This document shows, piece after piece, positions 11,641 to 41,841 of a stretch of DNA of 64,000 nucleotides. A model generated the notes under the pieces. That model was not told where the DNA came from and searched no databases. It was given only the letters and a program-made list of their open reading frames with translations. This DNA is from Agaricus subrufescens (lineage: Eukaryota > Basidiomycota > Agaricomycetes > Agaricales > Agaricaceae). The stretch is from positions 3,472,001-3,536,000 of the forward strand of contig CM057059.1 in assembly GCA_029945375.1 (NCBI GenBank), written 5' to 3'. A program made the position numbers and the translations under genes. How positions within the stretch are numbered: position 1 is the first letter of the stretch; each line of letters begins with the position of its first letter.

Positions 11641-11645
11641 TTGAC

Positions 11646-15771: not shown

Positions 15772-15783
15772 GGGCCCATAACC
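15772..15783 (-). other. primer-binding site of element B
   Basis: On the minus strand GGTTATGGGCCC directly follows the 5' LTR, the same half-tRNA-iMet complement as in element A. Confidence 0.7.
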
Positions 15784-16233: not shown

Positions 16234-16487
16234 TGTAAGCACGGGGCCTCACTTACGACACGCAGTCAGATACGTAGGCACAACGTATATTCCGATAAAG
16301 GAAAAGAGTCCTTATGATACGCGTATACGAAGAGAGAGATATAGAGAGAAAGAGAACAAGATGTAAGAGGGAGAGATGATGGATGAAAGAAGGTAACCCG
16401 TTATCGCCTAGAGCGGCCCTTTATATATGGCCAGTTAGTGATCGGTCAGTGACGTCAGCTCTTGTCAGTAGTAAGCTCTTGCTTACA
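16234..16487 (-). repeat. 3' LTR of the gypsy element
   Basis: 254 bp with canonical TG...CA ends and a 7-bp terminal inverted repeat (TGTAAGC/GCTTACA). It contains a TATATAT motif in the middle. It differs by one C/T from the 5' LTR. On the minus strand it follows the purine tract GGGCGGGGAGGAG (16500-16488). Confidence 0.93.
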
Positions 16488-16500
16488 CTCCTCCCCGCCC
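16488..16500 (-). other. polypurine tract of the gypsy element
   Basis: Minus-strand GGGCGGGGAGGAG abuts the 3' LTR and is the expected plus-strand primer. An A-rich 3' untranslated stretch of about 270 bp lies between the pol stop at 16772 and this site. Confidence 0.75.
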
Positions 16501-19516: not shown

Positions 19517-22082
19517 TCAGTAATCATTAACCCACCGCGGCGGGGCATCAGGGTCAGCCTTCGGAATGCAAAACGAGGGAGAGGCATGTGGTGAATCGGA
19601 TGGTCGGATACGACCAGCATCAAGGTGCTCATCAATCAACCTCTTCCACGCCTGTTTATAGCGACGTGGGCAACTGTATGTTCTGGGTCTCACAGTCTTA
19701 GACGGATCCTTCAGGTTGATTTCGGCCTCAATATCCTTTGGCAGTGCCGATACATTGGGCATCTCAGCGAAAATGAGTGAAAACTCAGCTGTTATCTTCT
19801 CATGTAGCCGCCGCAGGATCTCCTCATCAATTATAGAGGTAATGCATTCCTGGATTGCAGCGACCACAGTTTGCACATCTGATGTATGTGTATGCGGACT
19901 CATGGCCAACTTCGTTGCCAGAAGTTTCTCTTTCAGGTCTTCAATCAGAGTCTTTCTGTAGCGGGCGGTCGTTTTCAAAAGACGCCTCTCGGCCACCCTC
20001 CGCTCAGACACTGTTTGTGCAGGCTTACGTGGCTGTTTCTTAACTCCAACATTATCACCTAATAGATTGTAGTTCTGCTTCTTGTCCGTAACGATCCGAG
20101 CTTTGCTGTCAATCACAATTGAGTTTGCTGTCAAAAAGGGCATTCCCAAGATAATTGGACAGGACAATTCATTGACAATTAACGCTTTAACACTACGAGC
20201 GGAATAAGACAGATCGGTAGAGGAAAGGGATAACACGGCGAATTCTTTGAGAGAAGAGCGTCCAGACGACATTGCACCGCATACAGAAAAAGAGTCCTTA
20301 AGTGGGTATCGCTGCAGGCCAAGCTCGCTAACTAGGGTGTCGCGGATGAGGACAACATGTGCCCCACAGTCAAGGAGGGCAGTTGTCTTCACTGGAAAAT
20401 CATCGTTAGGTCCCAATACCGAACAGTCCCAGTAGAGATGTTGACCACGTACGTCACTACGGGTCGTGTCCCCTTCATCACCGAGGAACGCGATTGCATC
20501 GCTGTCCTCGCCAGAGTCATCGGAAGGTTCCTTGTCAGCCGGCACAACGCTATTGGCAGCGTCCTTCTTCTGTTTCTTAGCAGGACGGTCGGAAGAGGCG
20601 GATGAGGACCCGGAGCCACGCTTGTCGCCGCTGGCCTCCTTGCCCTTACTGAAAGCATCAATTTCGGCTTGTGTCGGTTTTTGAACAGGTCGATAGCCCT
20701 CCCCCCGAGGAAAAGGTGCCGTACATTCCAGAGATCTGTGGTTCTGCAGAACCTTCCTACACTTGAAGCATCCATTGAACTTCACTAGGATGGCACGCTC
20801 GTCATCGGTCAAGGCCGGGCAGTAATCGTTTTCAGCAGAACCGGCAGGCTTCTTCTCCATCTTACGAGATCTACCACCGGTCGAGGTACCAGCATTCCCC
20901 ACACCGGAACCTCCCGCATTAACAGAACCAGACGACCCAACCTTGGCATTGCAAATACGTTCCGCTTCCATAAGTGCATCCCAAATCGCTTTCTGTTGTC
21001 GGCGTCGAACGTTGTCTAGTCGCTGCACCTCATTTTCCCATTTAATAGAGTCAGTGATCGTATAAACATAAGAGCCAGAAGGGGTAGGCGTCTCGAATAC
21101 TAGCCTCATGAGGTCCTCGCACAAATGAGACTGTAGGAAGCTCCGGAAGGCCATGTCATCGAAATGAAATGCCGTCCCAACCAGAACAGAATTCTTCCTT
21201 TTCACCCTGGTTGCCCAGTCAACAAACTTTTCACCTTTCTTCATAGAATCAGATTGAAGACTGTTGTAGACTTCTAATTCCCAGTTATCCTGTAAGAACC
21301 GTTTCCGGATCTTGTCCATGAAAAGCGTAACAGTCGTCCCAACGGGTTGTTTACCAGCCTCGATGTTGACCCACTTCATGTGTTCACTATTCGCGAAACA
21401 CCCAGCAATCTTTTTCAGACGTCGCTTCTCATCAGTGATACCTTTATCCTCGAGGTATACCTCCACATAATCCTCCAATTCTCGGAGAATGTAAGGGGTC
21501 AACACCGTTGCAGTAACCCTAGGTAACCCTAGAACTTTTGGAATCTCGATACCGTCACAGAGTACAATAGCGTTACCCATATCGTTGGAGGAGGAAGAGT
21601 CGGAGTCGGAAGAGTCGGAAGAAGCACAGGAATCAGAAAGGGGTACAGAAGGCAACAGCCCAGGTGGTGGAACAGGTGCAGGCGGTAACGAACCAGTAGG
21701 GGTAGTAGGAGCAGCCGGAGCGGCAGGAATAGGCACAGCGGGAGAGTTAAGAGCGGAAATGACACCAAGGCTCGGTGTATGCGGTGTCGTCGGCAGTAAA
21801 CCAGATGTATCGCCCGGTATCACAGGAGTGACAGGTCAGCTAAAATGTCCCAGTACAGAGGTCGGCGATAAAGGTACAACACCAGATGGAGCTGTAAAAC
21901 CAGACAAAGGATTTGTCAGAACGGTCATTGTATGCGGTAAAGGAGTGCACATATGCGCACAAAACGGTAGTATATCGGTATTAGCACCCAGAGGGGCTAC
22001 AGCAGTATCAGATTCCAGCGTTGGCCCGACAGGCCTTGGGATAAAAGTCTTCCCAGAACGCGGGGCAGGGGACTGATGTATA
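19517..22082 (-). CDS. gypsy gag-protease part of gag-pol (two in-frame TGA stops)
   Basis: Continuous gag frame from the insertion point to the TGA at 19517-19519, with another TGA at 21836-21838. It holds a proline/serine-rich N-terminal stretch, a capsid-like region (about 21500-20950), a cysteine knuckle CFKCRKVLQNHRSLEC, and the protease motif ALLDCGAHVVLI, where DCG replaces the usual DSG/DTG. Both TGA codons lie where the family would carry arginine, for example WVNDY-TGA-ELNRN, so they look like CGA to TGA changes. The frame also continues across the DNA element into 41385-41499. Confidence 0.85.
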
Positions 22083-22139
22083 CTGTACATAACACATACA
22101 GCCGGCTGTACAAACCACATACAGCCACCAGTACATTTT
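22083..22139 (+). repeat. left terminal inverted repeat of the 19.3-kb element
   Basis: 57 bp beginning CTGTACATAACACATACAGC. It matches the reverse complement of 41328-41384 at 50 of 57 positions. It contains the 14-bp palindrome TACAGCCGGCTGTA and the repeated word ACATACAGCC. Confidence 0.9.
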
Positions 22140-22179
22140 AGGCAACCTGTATAACTATAGTAGTCATACAGCAGCCTGC

Positions 22180-24200
22180 TACTAGTGGGAGTAGAATCTT
22201 ACTAGCATGGGATGTGAAATATAATAGAATCCTACTGGGATGGGGGAAACATGAATGGTAGGATTCTACTAGTGTGTAAAAACTGTGTGGAGTAGGATTC
22301 CACTCATTGTGTACAGTAGAATTGTACTGATAGAGGATAACTGTATGCAGTAGAATTCTACTGATATGGGATAACTGTGCACAGTAGAATTGTACTGATA
22401 GAGGATAACTGTATGCAGTAGAATTCTACTGATATGGGATAACTGTGCACAGTAGAATTCTACTGATAGAGGATAGCTGTGTGCAGTAGAATTCTACTGA
22501 TGTGGGGTAACTGTGCACAGTAGATTTCTACTGATAGAGGATAACTGTATGCAGGAGAATTCTACTGATGTAGGATAACTGTGCACAGTAGAATTCTACT
22601 GATAGAGGATAGCTGTGTGCAGTAGAATTCTACTGATGTGGGATAACTGTGCACAGTAGAATTCTACTGATAGAGGATAGCTGTGTGCAGTAGAATTCTA
22701 CTGATAGAGGATAACTGTATGCAGTAGAATTCTACTGATGTGGGATAACTGTGCACAGTAGAATTCTACTGATAGAGGATAGCTGTGTCCAGTAGATTTC
22801 TACTGATTGAGGAAAGCTGTGTCCAGTAGATTTCTACTGATGTAAGATAACTGTGCACAGTAGAATTCTACTGATAGAGGATGACTGTTTGCAGTAGAAT
22901 TCTACTGATATGGGATAACTGTGCACAGTAGAATTCTACTGATGTGAGATAACTGTGCACAGTAGAATTCTACTGATAGAGGATAACTGGATGCAGTAGA
23001 ATTCTACTGATGTGGGATAACTGTGCACAGTAGAATTCTACTGATAGAGGATAGCTGTGTCCAGTAGAATTCTACTGATGTAAGATAACTGTGCACAGTA
23101 GAATTGTACTGATAGAGGATAACTGTATGCAGTAGAATTCTACTGATATGGGATAACTGTGCACAGTAGAATTCTACTGATAGAGGATAGCTGTGTGCAG
23201 TAGAATTCTACTGATAGAGGATAACTGCATGCAGTGAATTCTACTGATGTGGGATAACTGTGCACAGTAGAATTCTACTGATAGAGGATAGCTGTGTCCA
23301 GTAGATTTCTACTGATTGAGGAAAGCTGTGTCCAGTAGATTTCTACTGATGTAAGATAACTGTGCACAGTAGAATTCTACTGATAGAGGATGACTGTTTG
23401 CAGTAGAATTCTCACTGATATGGGATAATTAGGCACAGTAGAATCACTATTGAGATAACCAAAAACAGTAGAACTACCTGATGAGATATCCAATGCAGTA
23501 GAATTCTACTGATGTGGGATAACTGTGCACAGTAGAATTCTACTGATAGAGGATAGCTGTGTCCAGTAGAATTCTACTGATGTAAGATAACTGTGCACAG
23601 TAGAATTGTACTGATAGAGGATAACTGTATGCAGTAGAATTCTACTGATATGGGATAACTGTGCACAGTAGAATTCTACTGATAGAGGATAGCTGTGTGC
23701 AGTAGAATTCTACTGATAGAGGATAACTGTATGCAGTAGAATTCTACTGATGTGGGATAACTGTGCACAGTAGAATTCTACTGATAGAGGATAGCTGTGT
23801 CCAGTAGATTTCTACTGATTGAGGAAAGCTGTGTCCAGTAGATTTCTACTGATGTAAGATAACTGTGCACAGTAGAATTCTACTGATGTGGGATAACTGT
23901 GCACAGTAGAATTCTACTGATGTGGGATAACTGTGCACAGTAGATTTCTACTGATAGAGGATAGCTGTGCACAGTAGAATTCTACTGATGTAAGATAACT
24001 GTGCACAGTAGAATTCTACTGATGTAAGATAACTGTGCACAGTAGAATTCTACTGATGTAAGATAACTGTGCACAGTAGAATTCTACTGATAGAGGATAG
24101 CTGTGCACAGTAGAATTCTACTAATGTGGGATAACTGTGCACAGTAAAACTCTACTGATGTGGCATAATTGTGCATGGCAGAATTCTACTGATGTGGGAA
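22180..24200. repeat. left array of 34-bp palindromic repeats
   Basis: Tandem units of 34 bp, each a 16-bp palindrome CAGTAGAATTCTACTG followed by an 18-bp spacer of several types (ATAGAGGATAGCTGTGTG, ATGTGGGATAACTGTGCA and variants). By length there are about 55-60 units. The outer units are degenerate and the central ones nearly perfect. A longer period of about 505 bp is superimposed, with marker units at 22781, 23290 and 23793. It has no coding content. It lies just inside the left TIR and is mirrored by the right array. Confidence 0.93.
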
Positions 24201-24546
24201 TTTCCTATTCTTTTTATCTGGGACTATTCCTATTCTGTATCCTACTCCTATATGTCCTTGTATATAAGTTTATAATTCCTGTACCTAGTGCCTCAGTTTG
24301 AAATTGACCTAGATTATTTCCCTCTCAATACCTATCAATCTGCTAAGCTTTCCACTCTTTGTATTTCTATCCACTTTTGCTCTTCAGGCATCCCAGAATC
24401 TGCTGGAGAGCACAGTGTGCTGTCATGTCACTGAGGTCAATGCCTATCCCTTGTCAGAACCCATTTAGTTCTGACTCTGCAGTTGTAGTCTAAACAATCC
24501 TCACATTTTGTTATATGATAATGCAAAACATCAAAATTCATCATAT
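24201..24546. other. non-coding spacer inside the 19.3-kb element
   Basis: AT-rich sequence between the left palindrome array and the 3' end of the minus-strand gene at 24547. No repeat or gene was recognised. It presumably holds the polyadenylation region of that gene. Confidence 0.4.
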
Positions 24547-26144
24547 CTACAACAACTCCTCTACATTTAGACTGACTCCAAACTTCTCATAGTAAGCATT
24601 GCTAATATGTCCTATAGCTTTCTTCATCATCATCTTCTCAGCTGCTTCCTTGTCTCCTATAGATCCACTGAATAAATCTGTACTCTTGATACCCCAAAGT
24701 CTATCCAGATTTTGAATAATGAAAAGAGTATTTCTTGGATTGAGGGGTTGTGAGCCAAAACCCTCAGTTACTCTACTATCTTTGATGAAAGAAGAAATCT
24801 CCCAGCTCTTCCAGAGAGCAGCACCTACAACAGCAGTTTCAACAGCACACCCACAAGAAAAATGCCCATCAACCTGTTTCCTAGCATTTTTTCTAGTCTT
24901 CATCATTCTAGGAACTGGTACACCATGAATCTGGATATCTGCCATAGACTGAAAACCATCAACATGTGATGTCACCCTGTCTTTCAAGTCATGGTGAATG
25001 CAGATAGTATTACCAGATTCATTGGTAAGCATTTCCAATGTAAGAGCCTGGGTAGTGGTATATGCCTCTGGCAGAAATCCATGATTTTTCCTGACTTGGT
25101 TCTTGAGAGAAGTTGGAATGTATGGTTTTTCAAAGACTTGAGCAGTGAGCCAATCAGTTAAAATTTTAATTCCTTCAGCTGTTTCAAATGTGATTAATCA
25201 GTAGATATTGAATAATATAGAATACATACTGTGGCTGTGTTGCTTTGGTTCAGACTTGGCCTTTTTGTTAGGTCTTGCCTTTTCTTTTCCTTTTTTCAGT
25301 TCTACAATGCCATTATTAAAAAAGCCAATAGAGCTTAGAAGAATTACCTGGTATAGTTACTTCTGAGCTTGCAGAGTCATCATCAGCTTGTCTTTTCAAA
25401 TTTTTGAATACTGGAAATAGTCAAAATAATGTCAAATTTGCTAGAACAATTGAAACTCACAGGATTCTTTATTTTCAGGAGTCAAAATTTTCATAATTTC
25501 ATCAGGACTATCAATCTCCACATATTTGGCAGTTCCAGCATATGGTTGATATTCATCAACATCCTCATCAGAGGAAAAATCACAAATAGCTGGACCAGGT
25601 AGAGTGTTAAGAGGGGTAGTAGATTGGGGAGGCTGAGCAGATGCTAGAACAGGAGCCATGGAAGTTGAAGCATTTTTAGAGGTAGGTGGTGTAGTAGTGG
25701 CTGGTATATTCTCTTCAATTGGAGTAGGGGAATTATGCTGAGATTGGGTAAAAGCTGAAGTTGAGACCTCATCAGTTACAGCAGACACTGAGGCTGCATC
25801 AGTTGTAGCCTCATCTTCATACAGGCTTTGCAGTAGCTCTTGAATATTATCCAGGTGCTTTTTCCTGTTTGCAATAGTCATAGTTATAGACTTTATATTT
25901 TCTAAAGATATTCATTCATTGTTTCAATAAATATCTAGATAACCATAAAAAATAACATACTTCGACTCTTGGCAGTCTTTTTCCTTGCCTGAGCAAGTTT
26001 CAACTGATCTTGTTGGTATTTGATAATGGCAAGTAAAGTCTTTTCTTCTTCCTTCAATTGTAAAAAGGCTAACAATCACTGTCAGTAATCATGATTAGAT
26101 ATAATCATTTGATACTGACTGTATTGAGTCAGGGTTGAAGACAT
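24547..26144 (-). CDS. element gene A: unknown 446-aa protein
   Basis: Six exons: 26144-26120, 26068-25961, 25901-25461, 25410-25348, 25301-25230 and 25178-24547. They sum to 1341 nt, 447 codons, with introns of about 45-60 nt. The N-terminal part is Lys/Glu-rich and probably coiled (LKEEEKTLLAIIKYQQDQLK). A long Ser/Thr/Pro-rich acidic linker follows, then a basic stretch KKGKEKARPNKKAKSE that looks like a nuclear localisation signal. The C-terminal domain of about 210 residues includes GHFSCGCAVETAVVGAALWKSW and IQNLDRLWGIKSTDLFSG. I do not recognise the family. Its position in the transposon and likely nuclear import suggest an accessory transposition or regulatory role (inference). Confidence 0.75.
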
Positions 26145-26589
26145 GTTGAGTAGACAAGGCTTTTTTCCAAGAGCAAGTAAAATAGCACTGAGGGGTTAGT
26201 TGAATTCTACTGACTAACAGGTATTTAAGCAATTTCATTATACCCTATGTGAGCAAACTGTGGATGGCATCAGTAGCTGTGCTTGGGAAATTAATTTAGC
26301 CAGAGAAGCAAGCTAGCAGTCCCAGGAATTTGGTATATACAGTAGGACTTACAGCATGTCTACAAGATTGACAGCATGATTGTGACATGCAGGGATGGTG
26401 GTGTGACAGTGGTAAAACTATTCTACAGAAACCATATGGCTTAAATTAACATTGAAGGGTTCTACTTTGACAAAAGCATCATATTCAAGTATTTTATGAT
26501 TTTGTGTACACTGATTACAACATGACTTTGTTGTGTATCATGTCAGCAAGGTGTGAGGATCAAGAAATAGAAATAGATATGTACACTTA
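26145..26589. other. upstream region of element gene A
   Basis: No gene is seen. A single copy of a repeat-like word (GAATTCTACTGAC at about 26200), related to the palindrome of the terminal arrays, lies just upstream of the start of gene A. It could be a transposase or regulator contact site; this is a guess from the sequence likeness only. Confidence 0.35.
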
Positions 26590-28440
26590 ATGCCTTCATT
26601 ATGGGATTACTTTGATGTTCGGGACGCAGCCCTGATCAATGGTATAGCCATGACCTTGTATTTTAGCCTGTACATGGACTGAGTGCAGTAACGGTATGAC
26701 AGTGCCTTGACATTGCGAGGTGCAATGGCTGTGATCAGATGCCTACTGATCATGGCACAGTTTTGTCATGTGTAGTGCATCAAGACGACTGTCAATGAAG
26801 TGCAAACACTTACACTCTTCATTGCGGGATTGCTTTGACAGTCAGGAGGCAATAGCCCTGATTAATGGCATGATGGCAGAATAATGGCGTGGCCGTTGTG
26901 GCAGCGGCCTTGTATTTTAGCTTGCACATGTCCGCGATCTTTTTTTTCCTATAATCAACGCATGGCCGTGATTTTTTTTTCTCCTATAATCAGCGCATGG
27001 CCGCGATCTTGCTTTGGCCCGCTCATGGACCAAGTACGTCAATGGGCGTGGTCCTGCCGTGATCAGATGCCCACTGATCACGGCAACAACCTTGTCGTGC
27101 ATTGTGTCTCGAGATGCGTGTCAGTGAGGTGCGAAAATCAAGAAATGATCACGTACACTTACGAATTTCATCTCGGGATTTGGTTGACATTCGGGATGCA
27201 ACGGCCCTGATAGATGGCAAAATGAGATGATAATGGCATTGTGTCTGCGATAGCCGTGCGCATGGCTACGGTCTTGCTTTTGGCCCGCGCATGGACCAAG
27301 TACGTCGATGGGCGTGGTCTTGCTGTGATTAGATGCTCGCTGATCACGGCACGACTTTGTCGTGCATCGCGTCTCAAGATGGGTGTGCGCTCAGTGCAAA
27401 AATCAAGAAATGAGTACGTACATTTACGACTTTCATTTCGGGATTGGTTTGACATTCGGGATGCAACGGCCCTGATCGATGGCAAAGTGAGGTGATAATG
27501 GCATTGTGTCTGCGATAGCCGTGCGCGTGGCTACGATCTTGCTTTTGGCCTGCGCATGGACCGAGGGATCGATGGGCGTGGTCTGCTGTGATCAGATGCT
27601 CGCTGATCACGGCACGACTTTGTCGTGCATCGCGTCTCAAGATGGGTGTGCGCTCGGTGCAAAAATCAAGAAATGAGTACGTACATTTACGACTTTCATT
27701 TCGGGATTGGTTTGACATTCGGGATGCAACGGCCCTGATCGATGGCAAAATAAGATGATAATGGCATTGTGTCTGCGATAGCCGTGCGCGTGGCTACGAT
27801 CTTGCTTTTGGCCTGCGCATGGACCGAGTGGATCGATGGGCGTGGTCTTGCTGTGATCAGATGCTCGCTGATCACGGCGCGACTTTGTCGTGCATCGCGT
27901 CTCAAGATGGGTGTGCGCTCAGTGCAAAAATCAAGAAATGAGTACGTACATTTACGACTTTCATTTCGGGATCGGTTTGACATTCGGGATGCAACGCCCT
28001 GATCGATGGCAAAGTGAGGTGATAATGGCATTGTGTCTGCGATAGCCGTGCGCGTGGCTACGATCTTGCTTTTGGCCTGCGCATGGACCGAGTGGATCGA
28101 TGGGCGTGGTCTTGCTGTGATCAGATGCTCGCTGATCACGGCGCGACTTTGTCGTGCATCGCGTCTCAAGATGGGTGTGCGCTCAGTGCAAAAACCAATG
28201 AATACGTACATTTACGACTTTCATTTCGGGATCGGTTTGACGTCCAGGATGCAATGGCCCTGATCAATGGCAAAATGATGACATGATAATGGCATGTTGT
28301 CTGCGATAGCCGTGCGCATGGCCGCGATGTTGCGTTTGGCCTGTGCACGGACCAAGTCCAGTGACGGCTTGACGATGGCGTGGCATCGTGAGCTGCGATG
28401 GCCGCAATCAGGGGCAAGGGAAACGAAACGTAGGCGACTG
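26590..28440. repeat. 264-bp tandem repeat array
   Basis: Units of about 264 bp. Anchor words at 27186, 27451, 27714, 27979 and 28239 give spacings of 265, 263, 265 and 260, with more divergent units on the left from about 26600 and a partial one on the right. Each unit contains a hairpin GTGATCAG-7 nt-CTGATCAC (for example 27853-27875) and GC-rich wording unlike the rest of the element. The repeated open frames of 80-170 codons in it are by-products of the repetition. Confidence 0.9.
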
Positions 28441-31206
28441 TTTTGGTATAGGTCAAAGCTTAGCATCATTGATTGTCACACCGGGTAACAAGGTACAATG
28501 ACACATTGATTCGGGTACAAAGGCATTTTCTTCGGCTGCCTTCCATTCTTTCAATGAAAATGTTAGTAGGTTGTCACCGCTCTAATCTTCATAATGGTGG
28601 CCTTTGAGGGAGATTTAACTTCATGCGGGCCGCTCATATGTTTGTTACTGCTTTAGTTCTTCATAAGTGTCGCTTTGAATTCAAATCGAAATGCATCCTG
28701 TCGATGTTATTGTTTTTGCGCGAGCACACGCAGGCCCTACCCTGAACTGTCAATGGAGTTCGGGACAGTCTGCCGGCAAGGCAACTGCTGCCGAACACCG
28801 CTAGCCTTTTTGGGTACTAAAGCCTTGATGGTGTCTGGCGACTATCCGTTCACAGCGTTCGCTTATCGCATGCTGGGACGGTTGATACCTGGGTGGTTTC
28901 GAGTGTTCGAGGACCACATGGATGATGCTCTGCGAGTGAAGAAAGTTGCGAACAGAGTGAGTGTTATGATTTTGTGTTGTCGTCCATATCGCGCTCACTT
29001 CCCTGGCTTGGCGTGCGGGACGCTGACAGCTGCAATGGGTCCCTGCCACGACCCTGCCTCAACTTTACAGCGATTGCAGGGCAATGAAATGATCCGTGCT
29101 GTTATCAATGGCGCTCCCCGCACGCAATAAATAGAACAGTGCATCGTCGAGTAGGCCTTTTCCTCGCCTTTCATTCCTCTTCCCTCAGATCGTTCGCAGT
29201 TCTATCCCCCTTCTTGTCGTCGTTTCGACTGAGTACGGTCGAGTTGCGGTTAGGCGCCCCCGCAATGAGGCTTGGAAAAGGCATGTCGACTTCGTAGATT
29301 GGGTGCGATTGGAACACCCTTGGCCTGTTTGGCCGAGGTTCTTCAGCCTCTCCGACTGCTCACAGACCCGCTTGACCTCTGTGCCAGCTGTGGTGTGAGC
29401 GTGGGGATGTCCTCACCATGGGCTGCGTCAACGTGCGCTGACCGTGCCTCTCGCTTTGGCGGAGGGATCGTGAGGAGTTCGCAGAAGCGCTTACGATTCT
29501 CGAGTCTCCCACCATTTCTGCTTTGTCATGCTCTCGCGATGGAGGAACTTCTTGGAGACTTGGTGCGCCATCGTTTGTTCTATCCCACACCGTTTATTGC
29601 AACTATCTAACACAGACATAGTCTTTTAATGTCTATCGCTTTACCTGTGTGCGCTATCACTTTTCACGTGTGCGCTATCGCTTTTCATGTGTGCGCTGTC
29701 AGTTTACCTGTGCGCTATCACTTTACCTGTGTGCGCTGTCAGTTTACCTGTGTGCGCTATCGCTTTTTCTGTGTTTGTTATTGCTTTACCTGTGCGTTTT
29801 CATTGATGCTATCCTGTATCCCCACTCAATCTCTCAGAAATTTACTGGTCTGTCATGGTCTACCCGGTTGTAGACTTCCTTTTTTCCTGTAGGTATTGAT
29901 ATCCTCCCCGCCTATCCATCACATGCCCTCTCTTCACTCTCTTGCTCCAGTATTGCAGTGTGTTGAAGGAACATGTTGGGACTTTGGTAGGCCATTCTTA
30001 ACACTACCACGTGCACTATACTTGCATCTCTCTCACTCATTGTAGTTTTTTAGTGTTTGTTCGGTCTCTGCTTTCGTCTTATCCGTCACACACCCTCCTC
30101 CCCTCACTCTCTTACCCCATATTGCCATGATGTGTTGCGACTTTGGTAGGCTATCCTTTATGCTACTGTGTGCGCCTTACTTGCATCTCTCACTCATTTG
30201 TAGTTTTTTAGTGTTTGTTCAGTGTTTGATTTTGTTCATCTATTTGGCATTCTCCTTTGTGTTCATGGAGATATCCGCCACTGATAGAATACCATGTCCT
30301 TGTGTTCATGTCGGTACTCATTCTATTATTTGTGTGTGTGGATCTCATCTCATCCTCATATAAAGCATCTGGTGTCATCATGGACACACTCTACACCAAC
30401 GTTTTGGTGTCCCTCTATCTTTTGAGGTTTGTCATTGATCTACATGTGTTTGTCTTACTCACGCGTTACAGGTTCTTGTCTCCCTTTGCTATGCTCTTGG
30501 GATTATATACTGCCTTGCTCAGTGAACTGGTGTTGTCAGTGGCACCCCTTACATTTGTGAACTCCATTACTGACCATGTGTCATAAAGTATCTTCGTAGC
30601 ATTTGACTCACTCAGCATTACTTATGCCTTGTTGTACCTCTACACTGTGTGAGTCTGCCTTCTGTGATCCAGGTTGATTCTATTGCTTTACTCATGATGT
30701 ATACTTGACAGATCTTATTCCTCGCATGTGCCACTCTACTTTTCCCACCATCTGTATCATTTGTATGCTGCATCTTTTCGGTGAGTGCTACCTCTTGTAT
30801 GATATACTTAGTAATGCCCAACCTTCTATGCTAGACTATGTCATTCTCTGTCATTATTGTGTCACGGCTATATAAGGTACATGTCTGATTTACTTTTGAC
30901 CCATACTCAATATGCTTGTAGGTGGGCGTATTTTACTGCAAGATGATCTGCTATGTTTTGTCTTACTTTGTAAGTATCCTCTCTGTGAATGTATTAAGTT
31001 GTACTTACTATTTATTGTTACTCAGTCATTTGTATATCATATGTACTTGTTTGTTACTTACATTGTATTCTTCTTATATGTAGTTATATGACCTGAGACA
31101 GGAGGGCCCGCCTGTTTCATGCCATGTAACTTTTTTTTAGTGTAGTGTTTTCAATTTTTAACTTGCAATCCTCATGTAACAATGCATATATATTATCATG
31201 AATAGA
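28441..31206. other. long non-coding middle of the 19.3-kb element
   Basis: About 2.8 kb with no supported gene. It holds a minisatellite (29633-29803) and an imperfect duplication of about 170 bp (29910-30080 against 30080-30235, sharing TTGCATCTCTC and TAGTTTTTTAGTGTTTGTTC). Open frames such as 28675-29130 lack splice structure or any recognisable motif. The stretch from 30240 on is pyrimidine-rich in the style of an untranslated or intron-derived region. Confidence 0.4.
29633..29803. repeat. 21-bp minisatellite
   Basis: About eight degenerate units of the type TTTACCTGTGTGCGCTATCA, period about 20-21 bp, alternating CGCTATC and CGCTGTC. No coding meaning is evident. Confidence 0.75.
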
Positions 31207-31297
31207 GGGGAAACCCTGTCAGTCTGATTTTATAAGGGGAAACTCTGTCAGTTTGATTTTATAAGGGTAAAAACTTAGTCAATTTCATTTTATGAGG
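31207..31297. repeat. three 29-bp direct repeats upstream of element gene B
   Basis: Units GGGGAAACCCTGTCAGTCTG..., GGGGAAACTCTGTCAGTTTG... and a weaker third begin at 31207, 31236 and 31265 and end in ATTTTATAAG-like words. They lie about 100-200 bp before the start codon of the gene at 31403, so they may belong to its promoter (inference). Confidence 0.6.
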
Positions 31298-31402
31298 ACC
31301 CAGGTAATCCAAACATGTTTGCTCATGTGATTTTACAGATCTGACCATATATAAGATGAAAAACTTTTGAACACCCATCATTCTTTCTTGCTTCTGCCCA
31401 CC

Positions 31403-34253
31403 ATGTCTCAACCTTCCTCTGTCACCATTCCTGTCCACACCTCCTCTACCCCTCAGAGGCTCTCTGTCCCCCCTGCTACTCCTGCTCCTGCCTCTGCTGT
31501 CTCTCCTGCCCCTACTCACTCCTCTAGGGTTAGGGGAAATCTGGCTAGGAACCAAACTTTCACTAACTCCTTAGCCACTGCCATTGATGGTCAGCAGGCT
31601 GCTGCAACTCATAACCATGGAGGTAAGGGTAAGGGTAGAGGTCGCAAACCACGTCGCAAGTCTAGTAAGTAATTTTTCATATCTTAGTTCTCTATTTTTA
31701 CCAGTATTATAGAGGGTAGAATGGAGCAACAAGAAAGTGTTAGTGAAGTTGGTGAGTATTTCATAATAACAAGTATAGCTTATCTTGATATTCTTATAAG
31801 AACCTGGTACTACTAGTACCACTACTACCCCAGTTCAAGATAGTAAGTATGATTGTTGTATAACATTTTCTTATAACATCATAAGCTCCTATTAGTGGTC
31901 AGGTTTCTAGTGGTACTACTAGTACCACTACTACTCAGGTTCAAGATTGTAAGTATGATTTCCTTTTGTTGTATAGCATCTTCTTATAATATTATAAGCT
32001 CCTGTCAGTGGCCAGGTTTCTAGTGGTACTACTAGTGCCATTAGTACTCAAGTTCAAGATGGTAAGTACAATTTCTATTTGTTGTATAACATCTTCTTAT
32101 AATATTATAAGCTTCTGTTAGTGGTCAGGTTTCTGGTGGTACTACTAGTACCACTACTACTGAAGTTCAAGATAGTAAGTAAAAGTTTCATTTTTGTGTA
32201 ACACTTTCTTATACTTTTATCAGCATCTAGTGGTGGTCAAGTTCCTGGTGGAAGGGTAATCAGTAAGTTCAAATCTATATAACACATTCTTATACTTATA
32301 TTTTTGTAAGGGCAATCTACTATTCCCAATCTTCCTCCTAAACTTCTTAATCGTCGTGGTCAGTTCAAGTGGGATGCTACAGTTAGGGTTGAGTGGAAGA
32401 AAGCTGTAAAAGAAAAGGAGCATGATGTTAGAGATAAGGGCTTGAAGAAGAAATCATATGGGGCTAGAAAACGTAGGTTGCATCATAGGGCTGGTGTTAG
32501 CTATGTGGCAGGTGGTGAAGCTAGCAAGTCTTCTCTTGCTGATCTTGGTTTGGGAGGGGATGATGACTTGATGGACATTGATAGCTCAGAGCATGAAGAT
32601 GATGTAAATGAGTAATTTCTTGAATATACTAGCACTCTTTTCTGATGGTCTGCCAGGAAATTGATGAGTCTCAAGCTAGTTCTGTGATTATTATTTCCAT
32701 GTTCAATTTATATCTGTCTAATGATTTCTTAGTGGTGTTCATGTTGTCTTAATGGAGGAGACTTATATCTCTGCCAATGTCACCGGGCTGTTTGTTACAA
32801 ATGCCTTGGTGACATTGCAACACAGCCTAATCTTGGCAAATTTACCTGTCCATATTGTTGGAAAGAGAATGATACAAGAATGGGAACAGTCACTCCCTAT
32901 GTTGTCAGTACACACAGAACTATTACTTTGAAATTGATCTAACTATAATTTTAGCCTTTCACAAACTCTGCTGAAGTAGTATTCATAAAGTCCTCTCTAG
33001 TTTCTAGAAGCAGACTACCAGAAATATGTCCTGGCACCCTTTGTTTGATAAGCTTTGTGCTCAAAGGTTTTGACACAGAGTCTACTGTGGCATCCCTCAT
33101 CTATCTCCATCTCAAACATTATTTCCTCAATACCCCTACTAGCAAAGTTCAACATTTTATTGTTGAATTTGATGATGACACAGATAAAAAGGGACAGTTA
33201 ATTCATTGGAAAAATATGAAAAAGCTTCTTCCAGATTTTGAACAGTGAGTAGATTTATTCCTAGTATAAATCTAACTCTAATCAAAATTAGATTTGATCG
33301 TTTTTTGATTTTCATAACTACTCATTCAACACCTGATGGTGACCTCTGGGTTAAAGGCACAGGAAGAGATGAAAATGAAGACCGATCTGCTTTTGATATT
33401 GAAAATGTGAAGTATAATCTAATTCAAAGTAAAATTCTGATATACTAATAATTTGTCTCAGTTTTTCACTTTTCTCTTTCCCAAGAGATTCATTGAAATC
33501 ATAACAACTGATCTTAGAGCTAGTCTCTTTCTTTTGTGCTGTGAAGGTCCTTTTGTACAAAGAGAGCTTCTTGCACGTATTCACAGTTTTACAAAGGAGT
33601 GAGTATTTTTTAATTTGTTATTCTCCTGTCTAACTTTGATTTTGAAGCAAATTTTGGCTTACAACTGCCTTTGTCAAAAAAGACTTTCATCCAACATCTG
33701 TTCACACATTTCTGATGAATTTTGTGACCACAGTTTATATCAACCAAAAGCCATCAGTCTTCCCCAATCTTTTAGAAGCACAATATGAGTTAGGTGCAAG
33801 TATTGATGGAATTATGATGTCTAGGAGGGGTGACAATGGGTTTTGCTTATTACGTTGGGTCAATGCCCTTTATAGCCCTTGTGGTGCTCCTGCTCCAACT
33901 TGTTGTCCTAATTGTGGAGCATTTTTACCCTGGTCTGTCAAGGAAGTTTTCCCTGCTCAAAATCCTTCAGAAAAGATACCAGGTGTACATAAAGGTATAT
34001 TCAATATTATTAGTCATCTATGTCTGTACTCAAATATTTTACAGATCTGCAACCAATGTCTTTATATTGCAAAAATCCAAGTTGTGCTTTGGCACTTCAT
34101 CGGAAACATCCCTCATCTTCTTTTTTGGTTACAAATAGTTATCCCCCACCTCATACTATTGCTGGCAGGGTTTGGGGATATTGGGTTGGATGTTGGATGG
34201 AGCCTTCTGATACAGATCAAACTTTTAATTTGTCTTTTGATGATGTTATGTAG
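31403..34253 (+). CDS. element gene B: repeat-exon protein with PHD-like finger and possible caspase/CHAT-like domain
   Basis: Fifteen exons (31403-31664, 31713-31751, 31801-31842, 31886-31948, 31999-32061, 32112-32174, 32224-32262, 32311-32603, 32657-32683, 32733-32903, 32955-33244, 33292-33406, 33462-33598, 33648-33994, 34045-34253) sum to 2160 nt, giving 719 aa. The N-terminus is Ser/Pro/Thr-rich with a basic GKGKGRGRKPRRK patch. Exons 3-6 encode a repeated peptide (SGQVSSGTTSTTTTQVQD). A Cys-rich finger follows (WCSCCLNGGDLYLCQCHR...CYKCLGD...CPYCW, PHD-like). The middle domain carries FLIFITTHSTPDGDLW and LFLLCCEGPF, placed like the His and Cys strands of caspase/CHAT folds (inference). 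The C-terminus has CCPNCGAF and CKNPSC. The function is unknown. Confidence 0.8.
31801..32223 (+). repeat. tandem exon-intron units in element gene B
   Basis: Exons 4, 5 and 6 are each 63 nt and each is followed by an intron of about 50 nt, so the unit repeats with a period of exactly 113 bp (31886, 31999, 32112). Exon 3 is a shortened, related unit. Introns share GTAAGTA...ATAACATCTTCTTATAATATTATAAG-type wording, and exons encode near-identical 21-residue peptides. All flanking introns are phase 1, so adding or losing units keeps the frame. Confidence 0.9.
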
Positions 34254-34342
34254 CTAATTTTTACTCTGTGGTACTCTCAATTCAAAATGTTCAAGGTTTT
34301 GTCAACTATTAAACAATAGATACATATAAACCAATCAAAGTA

Positions 34343-37300
34343 CTATTTTACCATTTTTTGAATTTTACTGCGGTTCCATAATGAAAGAAAAACACTAGTA
34401 TATAATATAGCCCTTTCCTGCCCCATATATCTGATAGACTTTCTAATTTTTGCCAGTCCACCATTTCCACATTCAGCTGCACTAGAGTTAACCCTAGCTA
34501 ATAAAGGTTGACTTTCAGCATATGTAGACATGAAAAAGGCCTTGCTACATTTGCTATGACCTTGTGAATGAAAATTATCAATGAGAAAAACTGTATCAGA
34601 GAAAAACTCTGGTTCCCTGGTCCTACAATATGGACCAAGTTGACAAGCAAAATCATAAATGACATATTTTGGAGCTTTAGGCCATCTAGTGACCATAGCT
34701 GAGAAAACATCATTTCTTCCTTCACTTGAAGGAATGCAATGATATCCATAGCATATACTATGTGGACACCATGCACACATAAGCCCACCTGTTAGTTGGT
34801 TTTGACCATATTCATGGTAGTATTTGTTACACTGCCCTCCTCTTTTCTTGGGTTCCTTGATATTTTCATACCTGAGTCCAGGATATGTAGGCCTATGCCT
34901 GATCTGGGGCATACTATATTTTGTTCCACTCTAAAAATAGTCTTAGTATATTAATTTATTGAACAGGTATTTGATATCTACCTTTTTCCACCCACCATCA
35001 GCATTGGGTGCAGCTGGGTCACAAGCAGGGCTTTCATATGTAATCATTTGCTTTGTGACATCTTCTGTTTTCTTGATTAATTGTGTACAAAGTGCCAATG
35101 TTGATGAATCCCAGAAAGGTAAATTAGCTTGTTGTTCCATTTTCAATAACCAATATAGACATGGAATGCAAGCAAGATAATTGAGTGTAGTTGGTGATGG
35201 AGATGCCACAAATGCTTTGAGTTGGTGTAGTGCAGGTCTGTTGATGACTTGAAGAATAGAATCTGAGCTACTAATCTAATCTTTTTTAAGTCTAGTATTA
35301 AACAATTATATATGCAACTTACTTGTTTAAAAAATGCTATAACTTCAGAGGGGCATTTTTTCTTGAGTAATAAAGCTGATGGAGAGCAGTATTTCTCAAA
35401 AAAAGAATGCAGAATTGGTTCTTGTATTTCAAGCATTTCTTGTAACAGAGGTATTTGCTTGATTCTAGCTATCATATCTTGTGTCTGTTTGGTTTGGTCT
35501 TGTATATCTTCATCATCTGTAGACTCTCCCTCCCATTCTTTTGATTTTCCTTTTGAAGTAGTGACTGATCCACTATTAAGTGGTCCAGAGAAGATGTTTG
35601 CCATTAGTTTCCGGATTTCTGGTGATGAAATAACAGTTTGATGGCGGTAGTAAGAACAGCTTCTGATGATAGAGTTTTGGTGGATAGTGGTTGGGGGGTA
35701 AAGTGATGAATGTAAATGTTTCTGGTTGAAACCCACAGTAACACCATCCCATATGACTGTTTCTGGAGCTATTCCACATTCAGGACATTGAAAGTCATTT
35801 TCAAGAGTAAGTAGGCCAGCATAGCTAAACCAGGCTGCTCTGAAAATTTTTTCATCCACAAAAGGAGAATCAGAGTGGTATCTCTGATATCTAATTGATA
35901 CTGTCTTGATCCAGGCAGTAAATGGAGTTTCAGAAGATACATATGCTGCAGTGTACTCTTCTAAGAGATCATGGGTGAACAAGGCATGGTTATTGAGATT
36001 GAATATTCCCAAATCACTGCAGTCAGGACCAATGGCTTTGTACCGGGATGATTGACAATGTGTGCAATGTTGCAGTTGAATTTGGGTGTGGATTGACTTG
36101 GTAAGAGTATAGATAATGCAAGGTTTGGTGTAAATGTTGTAGTTTGGCTGGAATTGCTGTCCACAAGAACACTGAGATGATGGAGATAATAAAAGTGGTC
36201 CATCAAAGGCTAGAACTGGTGGAACAATCTTGTAAATCTTGTCTGTAGAAATTCTTGCCCAGGTTGGTGGGGGTATTGAGATATAGGATACAGAATGCAT
36301 AATCTTGATATTAGGCATAGAAATTGAAACTATAAGTATTATTAGCTTTGAGTTTTTATAACATAATTAAGTTTACCTGATAATCCATGATTCATATCTA
36401 GTGCCAAGTTTTCAGAAGATTCTCCCAAGTATTTCTTGACTGTTTTAATATGAGGGCAGAAAGGATTATTTGTTCCATCTTTGGAACATTGCCACGAACT
36501 GGAGTGGATGTCTGAGCCAACTAATGTGATTACTGCTCTAGCTTTCACAAGTGAAGGAAGTTGACTAGATCCAACAGAGAACAATGTTGTGTGTTCTGCA
36601 TCAATCAATTCCTTTGAAAAAATTGAAACAAGTTCAAGCTTTTCTATAGTAAAATAGTTAGATAATAAGAACATTAATAAGACTATCATTTACCTGGGCT
36701 GTTTTCAAATATGCCTTCACCATATTCTTTTAAAAACCTTTGATGAACACATTTGAAATTTGTTGTTGCTGCAGTGCAGTAACAAACAGGTTCTGAAGTT
36801 AATGATGCTCTATCAATTTGTAAATGATGCCATTTGCCCTGCATTAATTGTATTAGTTAACTGGATTTTATAAATTAGTTACAGTATAAATCTTACTGTA
36901 GATGATCCATTTTTTGTATCCCATCCTTGTATTACAAAAACATCCTTACTTATAGGATAAAATGGCATTGCATTAACAAGCACAGCTTCAACAAATTCAT
37001 GATAAAAGTCTGTTGCCAGTGATATGGAAGAACAATCTAAAAATGGATCCAAAAATCCACTGGAAGAAACTTCTGAAAATTCAGTAGACTCTTCTACTAC
37101 AGCAGTAGTTAGTGGAGAGCCACTGTTTAATGGCTCAGAAAAAAAAGTATCTGTTGAAGAAAATTCAAAAGGGATAGAATTTATAGCTGGAGCAGGATCT
37201 TTGATAAACAATGCTTCTTTAGATCTTGTTGAATGTCCTGTTTTTTGTTTTTTTTGAGGTGTAAAAGATAAAGATAAATCTGGAGATTTATCAAAGTTAT

Positions 37301-37406
37301 CAAGAGTTAAAGTAGGTGGAGAGTTGGGTGGTGTATCCAATGTTATTTGGATAGGATTGGGAGGGTTTTTGTTGTGACGCTTTTGTGATTGGCCTTTTTT
37401 AGACAT
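34343..37406 (-). CDS. KDZ-type transposase with cysteine clusters
   Basis: Six exons (37406-36897, 36838-36694, 36643-36377, 36329-35323, 35275-34982, 34930-34343) sum to 2811 nt, giving 936 aa from ATG at 37406. Ser/Pro-rich N-terminus with a basic patch; SWIM-like zinc motifs (CYCTAATTNFKCVH and CSKDGTNNPFCPH); further clusters CSCGQQF...CTHCQ and CPECG; then the KDZ core, with GGLMCAWCPHSICYGYHCI, YVIYDFACQL, FLIDNFHSQGH and NSSAAECGNGGL. Asp, Asp and Glu of the last three are candidate catalytic residues. The layout resembles fungal CxC-type clusters associated with KDZ transposases. It should cut and join the 57-bp ends. No stop or frameshift was seen. Confidence 0.88.
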
Positions 37407-37710
37407 TGAGATAAAGGAATAAAGAGAGGGGTGAGGAACAATAGTCACTTAGAGTTTAATATATATGTAGACAGTGAAAATTGATTGCTATATTTAGCAA
37501 GTTTTATTAATTAATCTAAACAAACACAAATAGTTGCCCCAAAATTTGCTGAGTCTAAATCTAATATTAGAAATAAATTGTATAGAAAGTTCTAGAATCA
37601 AATAAACAATAGTCAACAATTTCCCCAATATCAAAAATTTTGATCCAAGAATATATAAGAGTCTAGTATTACTAGCATTTTAATTATCCCTGCATTTTAG
37701 CCATCCTCTG
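37407..37710. promoter_or_regulatory. divergent promoter of transposase and element gene C
   Basis: About 300 bp of AT-rich DNA between the transposase start (37406, -) and the start of gene C (37711, +). The arrangement suggests a shared bidirectional promoter. No sequence motif was pinned down. Confidence 0.45.
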
Positions 37711-39008
37711 ATGCATTCCCCTCGTACTCCACGTACTCGTCGTCCCAGTCAAAAACTCTTGGATAGTGGCAATGCTATTCAAAAGAAGAAAAGACAGCCT
37801 GCTAAATGCCATATTTGCCCAGGTTTTCCTCTTAAAGCTATTTGTAGCTGTAGAAAACAGCAACAACAAACAGCCTCTTCCTCAAGTATTTCAAATACCT
37901 TATCTACAAGTACAGATCTTTTTTCTCACAGTATCTTTTTAGATTCTTCTGCAACTCCAGCCATTTCCCAGACTTTTTCTATAAATATAAATTCTCCTGA
38001 AATTAACTCACCCACAGTGTCACTGCCACATTCATCTCCTACACCCAACAATAATTTTGTATCTACACCAATACCTTTGTTCAATTTTCCAGATACCTTG
38101 GATACTCCAGAAAATTCATCAAATGGAGAAATTGTAAGTTCAATTTTTCTTATAAAATACCAATGTAACTTAAACTTTAGAATGACTCTCAGATCAACAA
38201 TATGATGTCAAATTCATCTGATCTTATGGTAAGTTACTATTTTACAAAAATTGATGAGAACTAATATATATAGATTGATCCACAACTGCTTGATCAAGAT
38301 AATCAGGATCTAGATCCTGAAATTGGCACTTCTGAAAATGTCCAAGAATTATCACCTAAAAAAAATGCAAAAACAGTCCCTTCAGTGAGGAATCCAGTTT
38401 ATGGCTTGGTAGAGGGAGTCAAAAAAGGAAGTGCAGTTTATGGTATGTTTTGATTATAAAATGCTTTTCTGTTGAATTTTAACAAAGATAAGATGTTGCA
38501 AGAACTCGTGAACTACCTGATAAAATTAATATGCTAGGAAAGTCAACCTCTAGATATAGAAGAGAACTACCAGACATTATTGCAAGGGCAAGTAAACTAT
38601 TATTTTTGAATCTGTGATTGACTTTATTCATATTATTGCCAGTGTGAACGGTTGGCTGTACAGTGTGATGTCTACATGATGTTAGTGTGTCAGCAAGCCA
38701 GTGGCTCTTCAGCTGCTGTGCACTATACCTCTCCTAGGCTCAGAAAAGAAGCCAAGCAAGACACTGTGGAAATTATTCAAAACTATCAATCTTTGATGAA
38801 CAAATTATTGTTGTCTCGGAGACAAGATGCATTAGTTGCTATCAAAGAGAAAGAAATAGCTGAAAAAGAAGCACAAGAAGCACAAGAGAGAACAAGACAG
38901 GCAGAAGAAAAAATAAAGGCACAAGAGACACAATTAGAGGCCCAGAGTATTTTGCTACAAAAATTACAAGCTCAAATGGAGGAATTGCAAGCACAAAGAG
39001 AAGAGTAA
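37711..39008 (+). CDS. element gene C: coiled-coil protein
   Basis: Five exons (37711-38133, 38181-38228, 38274-38442, 38493-38587, 38643-39008) sum to 1101 nt, 366 aa. The basic Cys-containing N-terminus (CHICPGFPLKAICSC) could bind zinc or DNA. A long Ser/Thr/Pro-rich linker follows, then a helical region CERLAVQCDVYMMLVCQQASG and a long Glu/Gln/Lys/Ala coiled coil over the last 90 residues. Intron 4 begins GCAAGT, the standard rare GC-AG donor; a GT donor there would put a stop in frame. It is divergent from the transposase, with about 305 bp between start codons. A DNA-binding or dimerising accessory role is inferred. Confidence 0.78.
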
Positions 39009-39109
39009 AGTAGACAAAGAATATGATACTGTAAATAGTTATTTAATGTTAATTTCTGAGACAAAAGATACTTGAACTATTCAACTGCTTTTAACATAAT
39101 TGATGGAAG

Positions 39110-41280
39110 TTTTCCCAATATAGTAGGATTCTACTGCTTATATTATAGTAGAATCCAATTGGCCACAATGTATGTACTGTGGTAGAATTCCACTCCCTAT
39201 TATTTTCCTATTGACTACTATTTCTCTACTGCAGTAAAATTCTACTATTGATAAATGTAGCTCTACAATGGATTCTACTGATCAAAACTTTCCCAATGCA
39301 ATAGAATTCTGCTGCACACAATAGCCTGACTGTAGTAGAATTGTACTGCCTATAATATCCATACTACAATAGAATTCTACCACTCACAATATCCTTACTG
39401 CAGTAGAATTCTACTGACCTTAATTTTTGCATTGCAGGAGAATACTACTATGAACAATGTCCCTACTGCAGCAGAATTCTACTATCCACAGTGGTTCCAC
39501 TGCAGTAGAATTGTACTATCAATATTTCACCCACTACAGTAGAATTGTACTGTCAACAATTTACCCAGTGCAATAGAATTCTACTGTTCACAATATGCCC
39601 ACTGCAGTAGAATTCTACTGCTCACAATATCCCTAGTGCAGTAGAATTCTACTGCTCACAATGTGCCCACTGCAGTAGAATTCTACTGCTCACAATATAC
39701 CCACTGCAGTAGAATTCTACTGCTCACAATATGCCCACTGCAGTAGAATTCTACTGCTCACAATATCCCCACTGCAGTAGAATTCTACTGACATCCCCAC
39801 TGCAGTAGAATTCTTCACAATATGCCCACTGCAGTAGAATTCTACTGCTCACAATATCCCCACTGCAGTAGAATTCTACTGCTCACAACATCCCCACTGC
39901 AGTAGAATTCTACTGCTCACAACATGCCCACTGCAGTAGAATTCTACTGCTCACAACATCCCCACTGCAGTAGAATTCTACTGCTCACAACATACCCACT
40001 GCAGTAGAATTCTACTGCTCACAATATCCCCACTGCAGTAGAATTCTACTGCTCACAACATCCCCACTGCAGTAGAATTATACTGCTCACAATATCCCCA
40101 CTGCAGTAGAATTCTACTGCCCACAATATCCCTAGTGCAGTAGAATTCTACTGCCCACAACATACCCACTGCAGTAGAATTCTACTGCCCACAACATACC
40201 CACTGCATTAGAATTCTACTGCTCACAACATACCCACTGCAGTAGAATTCTACTGCTCACAACATACCCACTGCAGTAGAATTCTACCCACTGCTGCTGC
40301 TCACAACATACCCACTGCAGTAGAATTCTACTGCTCACAATATCCCTACTGCAGTAGAACTATACCGCTCACAATATCCCTAGTGCAGCAGAACTCTCAC
40401 TGCTCACATATCCCTAGTGCAGTAGAATTATACCACTCACACATCCCTAGTGCAGTAGAATTCTACCGCCTACAACATATCCACTGCAGTAGAATTCTAC
40501 TGCTCAATATCCCTAGTGCAGTAGAATTCTACTGCTCACAACATACCCACTGCAGTAGAATTCTACTGCCCACAACATACCCACTGCAGTAGAATTCTAC
40601 TGCTCACAATATACCCACTGCAGTAGAATTCTACTGCTCACAATATCCCTAGTGCAGTAGAATTCTACTGCTCACAACATACCCACTGCAGTAGAATTCT
40701 ACTGCTCACAACATACCCACTGCAGTAGAATTATACTGCTCACAATATCCCTAGTGCAGTAGAATTCTACTGCTCACAATATCCCTAGTGCAGTAGAACT
40801 CTACTGCTCACAATATCCCTAGTGTAGTAGAATTCTACTGCTCACAATATCCCTAGTGCAGTAGAATTCTACCGCCTACAACATATCCACTACAGTAGAA
40901 TTCTACTGCTCACAATATCCCTAGTGCAGTAGAATTCTACTGCTCACAACATACCCACTGCAGTAGAATTCTACTGCTCACAACATCCCCACTGCAGTAG
41001 AATTCTACTGCTCACAACATTCCCACTGCAGTAGAATTCTACTGCTCACAATATACCCACAAATTAGAATTCTACTGCTCACAATATCCCTGCTACATTA
41101 GAATTCTACTGTTCACAATATTCCTACTACAGTAGAAACCTACTGCTCCCAATCCTCCCAGTGCAGTAGGATTCTATCCCTTAGTTAGATATCATGTCAG
41201 TAGGATCTTACCAGGCTTGATATCCAGAAGTCAATAGGATTCTATTAAGAACAATGTGCAGCCTGAATGGTAGGATCCTA
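39110..41280. repeat. right array of 34-bp palindromic repeats
   Basis: Tandem 34-bp units, each the 18-bp palindrome GCAGTAGAATTCTACTGC plus a spacer such as TCACAATATCCCCACT. By length there are about 55-60 units. The core palindrome CAGTAGAATTCTACTG and the 34-bp period are the same as in the left array, but the spacer differs. Units are degenerate at 39110-39600 and after 41050, and nearly uniform in the centre. No coding content. Confidence 0.93.
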
Positions 41281-41327
41281 CTCTGGGATGTATGGCTGTG
41301 GTAGTCAGAGCCTTATGTAACACTCCA

Positions 41328-41384
41328 AAAATGTACAAGGGGCTGTATGTAGGTTGTACAGCCGGCTGTATGCCTTATGTACAG
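41328..41384 (-). repeat. right terminal inverted repeat of the 19.3-kb element
   Basis: 57 bp reading (minus) CTGTACATAAGGCATACAGC. It matches the left TIR at 50/57 positions and shares the 14-bp palindrome TACAGCCGGCTGTA. The flanking TATGCATA at 41385-41392 is the putative target duplication. Confidence 0.9.
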
Positions 41385-41503
41385 TATGCATAAATCAGCT
41401 ACGTGCAGAACGCAGGACACTAGCGGACAGTCTGCGAGATCCGAAAGAGGATGACGCGGCAGTATCAAGTTCCCCGTTGGCCGACTTAGAACGAGTCTTT
41501 CAT
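41385..41503 (-). pseudogene. N-terminal gag fragment of the gypsy element
   Basis: About 35 codons of gag (KTRSKSANGELDTAASSSFG) lie between the 5' LTR leader and the DNA-element insertion, and join the frame at 22082 when the insertion and one 8-mer are removed. A TGA at 41395-41397 interrupts it. The only nearby ATG (41501-41503) is one base out of frame, so the original start has been damaged or lies elsewhere. Confidence 0.6.
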
Positions 41504-41587: not shown

Positions 41588-41841
41588 TGTAAGCACGGGG
41601 CCTCACTTACGACACGCAGTCAGATACGTAGGCACAACGTATATTCCGATAAAGGAAAAGAGTCCTTATGATACGCGTATACGAAGAGAGAGATATAGAG
41701 AGAAAGAGAACAAGATGTAAGAGGGAGAGATGATGGATGAAAGAAGGTAACCCGTTATCGCTTAGAGCGGCCCTTTATATATGGCCAGTTAGTGATCGGT
41801 CAGTGACGTCAGCTCTTGTCAGTAGTAAGCTCTTGCTTACA
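41588..41841 (-). repeat. 5' LTR of the gypsy element
   Basis: 254 bp, TGTAAGC...GCTTACA, one base different from the 3' LTR at 16234-16487. The target duplication CAGCT follows at 41842-41846. In minus sense the sequence after it begins CTTTTTTTTACG, which resembles no tRNA end. Confidence 0.93.

Follow-up and report, generated by a model that had tools for sequence, protein, structure and literature searches.

A 19.3-kb KDZ-superfamily transposon of Agaricus subrufescens with four genes and dyad arrays at both ends

A 64,000-nt stretch of the Agaricus subrufescens genome (assembly GCA_029945375.1, contig CM057059.1; hereafter the window, to whose positions coordinates refer) was analysed for a large element carrying four genes, G1 to G4, a satellite and two arrays of short palindromes. 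The element is a KDZ-superfamily DNA transposon, and what looks new is a lineage pattern, in which G1 and G4 are kept with a transposase bearing a CxC4 cysteine cluster and clusters of the dyad AGTA-N6-TACT lie at both ends. Gene models came from a simple gene finder, with the splice sites then picked by hand. The extent of the whole transposon was set by the ends shared among copies and by empty sites. The features were as follows.

22062..41405, no strand: whole transposon, 19,344 bp
22054..22061, no strand: left target-site duplication (TSD), CAGAACGC, perfect 8 bp
41406..41413, no strand: right TSD, CAGAACGC, perfect 8 bp
22062..22082, plus strand: outer left tip, GGGGCAGGGGACTGATGTATA, common to the copies, unlike the right tip
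41385..41405, minus strand: outer right tip, TATGCATAAATCAGCTACGTG (plus-strand letters), common to the copies
22083..22139, plus strand: left inner terminal inverted repeat (TIR), imperfect
41328..41384, minus strand: right inner TIR, imperfect
22308..24193, no strand: left array, 34-bp units bearing AGTA-N6-TACT dyads, of which 22062-24230 holds 51
39272..41176, no strand: right array, 34-bp units bearing AGTA-N6-TACT dyads, of which 39101-41405 holds 42
26993..28357, no strand: satellite, 265-bp unit, 5.2 copies
24547..26144, minus strand: G1, 446 amino acids, six exons; C-terminal domain whose CxxH and CxC are shared by 13 relatives
31403..34253, plus strand: G2, 719 amino acids, 15 exons; PHD finger at about residues 293-343; only in the window family
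34343..37406, minus strand: G3, 936 amino acids, six exons; KDZ-type transposase with CxC4 cluster
37711..39008, plus strand: G4, 366 amino acids, five exons, one GC-AG intron; divergent from G3

Boundaries and genomic copies

The ends were placed at 22062 and 41405 because copies keep the same 21 bp outside the inner TIRs and then differ. In all ten left ends compared, GGGGCAGGGGAC(T/C)GATGTATA stood outside the TIR as delimited in the first-pass annotation, with flanks diverging beyond (a single base of this 21-bp tip differs at copies C8b and C6a); right ends read in copies carried TATGCATAAATCAGCTACGTG at the corresponding place, followed by unlike flanks. The sharply bounded element of that annotation was recovered, with its ends (22083 and 41384) moved outwards by 21 bp. 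Its 57-bp TIRs were likewise found, near that length and imperfect, though inside unlike 21-bp tips instead of at the termini, and the bases it had read as an imperfect 8-bp TSD are element sequence recurring in other copies, the real TSD being perfect.

Rejoined flanks were aligned with three uninserted gypsy relatives without gaps near the site, at 98, 89 and 90.5% identity. The insertion site lies between a 255-bp repeat (41588-41842) and a gag/pol-type frame of 772 amino acids (19517-21835); the 255-bp repeats at 16234-16488 and 41588-41842 are identical and are probably the long terminal repeat pair of the gypsy element hosting the transposon. The statement of the first-pass annotation that removal of the transposon restores the gypsy gag frame was not borne out, the longest minus-strand frame over the rejoined site comprising only 103 amino acids.

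The genome (44,652,945 bases in 44 contigs) was searched for further copies. The element's first 218 bp gave 27 matches and the CxC4 transposase matched at 39 loci, 13 of which form the window family (assigned by profile start and G4 spacing); matches to G2 were confined to these 13. By DNA, subfamily A comprises C3 (window), C4, C10a, C10b, C8a, C38 and C6z, with C36 joined to C6z via a shared TSD, and subfamily B comprises C8b, C6a and C1, while the C5 copy is more diverged than either. BLAST pieces of up to 300 bp were left out of one copy comparison and those of up to 150 bp out of another; the copies at C10:629k and C6:739k were fetched in part only, and no G1 match was found within 26 kb of the latter. 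The prediction of a mobile unit of ~19 kb is upheld: ends, arrays and all four genes are shared by copies that stand in unlike surroundings and are bordered by 8-bp TSDs. An exact own TSD was found in five of the nine copies with both ends read (C3, C8b, C6a, C6z/C36 and C8a), and at C5 six of eight bases agree. A single insertion site shared by all copies, entertained at first look, was dropped once the outer flanks had been read.

Crosswise TSD matches were found among the remaining copies, the left TSD of C4 equalling the right of C10b and the right TSD of C4 the left of C10a (mismatched copies at C4:45-64k, C10:686-705k and C10:1422-1440k). These crossed TSDs may stem from translocation via the transposon (rearrangement through 18-19-kb repeats) or from assembly mis-joins. 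An inversion divides the C8a copy (C8:1395201-1415200); of its breakpoints, one falls within the element and one a few kb past the element's right end. Contigs C6, C36 and C38 terminate inside copies. Two gene-less elements of ~3.4 and ~3.9 kb retain the ends and arrays, with TSDs agreeing at 7/8 and 8/8 bases; ends and arrays would thus seem to be enough in cis. Both look like long near-perfect palindromes with 34-bp arrays. The element appears to be recently active and self-contained.

Elsewhere in the window, an uninterrupted frame of 1400 amino acids, copia-like by look only, occupies 11638-15840 on the minus strand.

Transposase and co-encoded genes

The CxC4 cluster of G3 scored 145.8 bits against PF18717 (cut-off 26.9). 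Residues D502, D834, D859 and E894, candidate catalytic residues, were invariant in 21 aligned sequences, which also shared a CxC..CxH cluster. Relatives of G3 numbered 185 at E<=0.001, the best being 51% identical and from Agaricus bisporus; among the 120 of them listed, three were without a name and the others came from named mushrooms and their kin. The cysteine cluster, the 8-bp TSD and the TIRs (imperfect, ~57 bp, inside unlike 21-bp tips) are KDZ features. Citations here and below refer to excerpts of the articles. An 8-bp TSD fits both Zisupton and Dileera (PMC12730594). Kyakuja-type elements, with a 7-bp TSD, CA..TG ends and no TIR, are described for two Laccaria families (PMC12730594); an 8-bp TSD, TIRs and a left tip with GGGG were found here instead.

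The four spliced genes proposed in the first-pass annotation have open frames, and other copies preserve these frames together with the splice sites. The frame check covered eight copies besides the window, and all four genes were open in seven copies in total (window, C4, C10a, C10b, C38, C8b and C6a). Between the window and C8b (A versus B), the ratio of nonsynonymous to synonymous divergence (dN/dS) was 0.29 for G1, 0.22 for G2, 0.22 for G3 and 0.17 for G4. In C5, G1, G3 and G4 were open, with dN/dS of 0.32, 0.19 and 0.27; the first exon of its G2 did not align and a forced reading held 25 stops, so that this value was not used. In the partly fetched C1, G1 was open and G2 interrupted (value not used), G3 and G4 lying mostly or wholly outside the stretch. 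Judged by these substitution patterns, the four genes are under purifying selection. As dS between A and B was 0.22 for G1 and 0.07-0.08 for G3 and G4, the two halves of the element evidently differ in history.

G2 was found only in the window family, so at least one gene of the element has been captured. Its PHD finger matched that of CHD4 (E=1.5e-4; next sequence 0.0086), and no Pfam family was found for G2 at E<=1. A second domain is shared with one Lentinula protein (29%). For P0121, a relative of G2, structure prediction from three sequences was unusable (mean predicted local distance difference test score, pLDDT, 35.3). A caspase- or CHAT-like reading of the second domain, based on a look at motifs (TTHSTPDGDL and LCCEG/LTCGG, shared with P0121) and on the poor model, is not claimed. 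Each unit of a 113-bp tandem repeat in G2 (31805-32224) consists of a 63-nt exon and a ~50-nt intron, and the length of the protein therefore depends on how many units are present; C8b and C6a have one unit fewer. For G1, one database relative was found within the length and word limits of the search (68%, A. bisporus), and C59, H62, C108 and C110 were invariant in 13 aligned sequences. G4 has a CxxC..CxC motif and a charged tail, by look probably a coiled coil.

Lineage pattern and dyad arrays

G4 was divergent from the transposase and 1.7-2.8 kb upstream of it at 39/39 CxC4 loci, one match being weak (C2:1028173, E=8e-4), and G1 lay within 26 kb at 38/39 and within 12 kb at 34/39, the distance limits (6 kb for G4, 26 kb for G1) being set by hand. 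The transposase is accordingly not a gene found always apart from the other genes, TIRs or arrays, an outcome named beforehand as evidence against the element. At C2:1092098 the nearest G1 belongs to a neighbour, its own lying 8.1 kb away. For eight G1 matches, the contig showed no CxC4 locus at a distance of 26 kb or less; one of the eight is C6z, which is cut by the contig end. The strand of G1 is that of the transposase in the window family and the opposite in other families.

Both palindromic arrays of 34-bp units (~55 units each) and the satellite were confirmed at the positions listed above. All 47 genome matches of the satellite fall inside copies of the window family, and array length varies between copies. 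Outside the window, dyads were sampled in 12 end windows from six other families, among 26 other CxC4 loci. Together with the window's own, clusters of AGTA-N6-TACT were found at both ends in 7/7 families. Counts per end window were 50, 34, 4, 9, 40, 20, 26, 26, 32, 28, 0 and 19; the zero-dyad window (L045) missed the array, and the adjacent L057 holds 11 dyads, most of them at intervals of 33 and 56 bp. Intervals of 33-34 bp predominated in C2:732k, C3_170, C1_1828 and the window family. Shuffling in two-base blocks gave a mean of at most 0.16 dyads in 14 windows and 0.32 in the worst control, and three control stretches held none. Ranked among tetramer dyads with gaps of 0-12, AGTA-N6-TACT came first in nine of the 12 windows, second in two and was absent from one. 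The centres of the dyads vary between families, in some also between the two ends (e.g. CCATAG and TCCTGG). The tip GGGGCAGG[G/T]GAC recurred in three of the six other families, and an 8-bp duplication was found in all three other families tested, with 0-3 bp of boundary ambiguity and with offsets scanned, so that short chance matches are possible. No description of KDZ dyad arrays was found in titles and abstract starts of the open-licence literature, nor any for KDZ combined with "subterminal".

Mechanism, alternatives and relation to known elements

The reading we favour, and hold to be probable, is cut-and-paste transposition in which the KDZ transposase and two cysteine-motif partners encoded alongside it act on subterminal dyads, in the manner of TnpA and TnpD of Spm; binding of the dyads and the roles of the partners are suggested by arrangement and conservation. 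G3, with its cysteine clusters and a core with invariant acidic residues, would cut the element out at its tips and insert it with 8-bp duplications. G4 and G1 would be accessory proteins retained by the lineage. G1, G4, both, or G3 itself may bind the AGTA-N6-TACT dyads as dimers along the arrays, and the bound protein would bring the two element ends together, as TnpA of Spm/En, which acts on subterminal sites, does. G2 is most likely a chromatin reader that would help the element to escape silencing or to choose targets. Spm/En (CACTA, with TnpA and TnpD) resembles the present element in its arrays of short sites near both ends and in a second element-encoded protein. It differs in its transposase and, since CACTA elements make 3-bp TSDs, in the 8-bp TSD found here, so that the likeness is one of analogy and not of membership.

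Several observations weigh against this account. The KDZ domain PF18758 reached only 23.7 bits on one exon of G3 (cut-off 26.6) and is unlisted for the full protein; it is precomputed for some close relatives, e.g. P0001, a rescan of which gave 25.0 bits. G1 and G4 are without a Pfam family above cut-off, and a structure model of the G1 domain was unusable (13 sequences, mean pLDDT 42.1). The 39 loci are related by transposition, and 39/39 does not amount to 39 independent events. TSDs were mismatched in three of the nine copies with both ends read (C4, C10a and C10b). C6_954 (4 + 9 dyads) showed poor dyad spacing and C5_2463 and C7_2163 a mixed, partly irregular one, and the two ends differ in some families; our confidence was lowered because of these irregular spacings and differing ends.

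It is also conceivable, if rather unlikely, that G3 moves the element alone, with G1, G2 and G4 as cargo with other jobs and with arrays that spread as satellites or hairpins and bind nothing. KDZ1-3 of Cryptococcus do move with a transposase having KDZ and CxC1 as the only protein named (excerpts of PMC12810828), and the variable array length is satellite-like. However, G1 and G4 stay beside the transposase across diverged families under purifying selection, and seven families have in common half-sites separated by six bases despite differing centres, whereas constant half-sites would be superfluous to a mere hairpin. That segmental duplication or ectopic recombination, rather than transposition, produced most of the copies is an explanation to which the mismatched TSDs with their two crosswise pairs, the split C8a copy and the three contigs ending inside copies would lend themselves. 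It is very improbable given that five copies have an exact TSD of their own, that the sequences bordering the ends are unrelated and that three empty sites are known for the copy in the window; moreover, crossed TSDs presuppose prior insertions and also result from mis-joins. That host genes and satellites were trapped by chance between TIRs at one locus, of which the capture of at least G2 might be reminiscent, is refuted by the recurrence of the four genes and both arrays at other sites, intact in seven copies, and we give it practically no credence.

Published KDZ elements include some with 8-bp TSDs, some of giant size and some that carry TET/JBP or other accessory genes (PMC12730594, PMC12810828, PMC8290104, PMC7641404, PMC12477816, PMC9297572). 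The suggestion of an undescribed family thus holds as far as the open-licence literature was searched, but not as a new kind of element, large KDZ elements with accessory genes being on record (PMC12477816, PMC12730594). KDZ1-3 of Cryptococcus share a KDZ-type transposase with a cysteine cluster, TIRs and 8-bp TSDs (4-8 bp for KDZ2/3), but measure ~9-11 kb, with TIRs of 139-241 bp and a CxC1 transposase (PMC12810828), against 19.3 kb, CxC4, three further genes and dyad arrays in the window. Giant algal KDZ elements match in size class (15-30 kb) and in having accessory genes; dyad arrays or fixed partner genes are not described for them in the excerpts of PMC12477816.

TET+ KDZ elements (Kojima 2025, PMC12730594) likewise combine KDZ with extra, probably chromatin-directed genes, and a TET+ Zisupton is reported from A. 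bisporus (PMC12730594). In the predicted A. bisporus protein P0122, a relative of G1 is fused to a TET/JBP-like stretch, whose match lies below cut-off (E=0.0098). Unlike TET+ KDZ with their TET/JBP gene, the 13 copies gave no match to this stretch (residues 64-181), which a strongly diverged TET gene could escape, and have a PHD-finger gene instead; in the genome the stretch matched only loci on C2, C7 and C14. There, a TET/JBP-like frame, G1, G4 and a CxC4-KDZ stand in the same order with identical scores over ~72 kb (C2:3846008-3918293, C7:2163363-2235612 and C14:91896-164181), which makes three occurrences of a segment of at least 72 kb, either duplicated or itself a giant element.

Carried further, and only tentatively, the favoured reading would make the CxC4-KDZ lineage a three-protein system (transposase, G4 and G1) that builds a nucleoprotein complex on closely spaced AGTA-N6-TACT dyads, whose kept half-sites and changing centres could prevent cross-action between families, the window family having added a PHD reader to evade silencing.

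KDZ elements are abundant in mushrooms, and the literature reached says little about their ends and helper proteins. The defined dyad and the two partner genes that stay with the transposase supply a specific DNA sequence and candidate proteins with which binding and mobility could be assayed. The near-identical 18-19-kb copies with crossed TSDs are a candidate agent of chromosome rearrangement, or else a warning on assembly joins, and the transposon-borne PHD finger, which parallels the TET/JBP genes of other KDZ elements, may be an answer to host chromatin.

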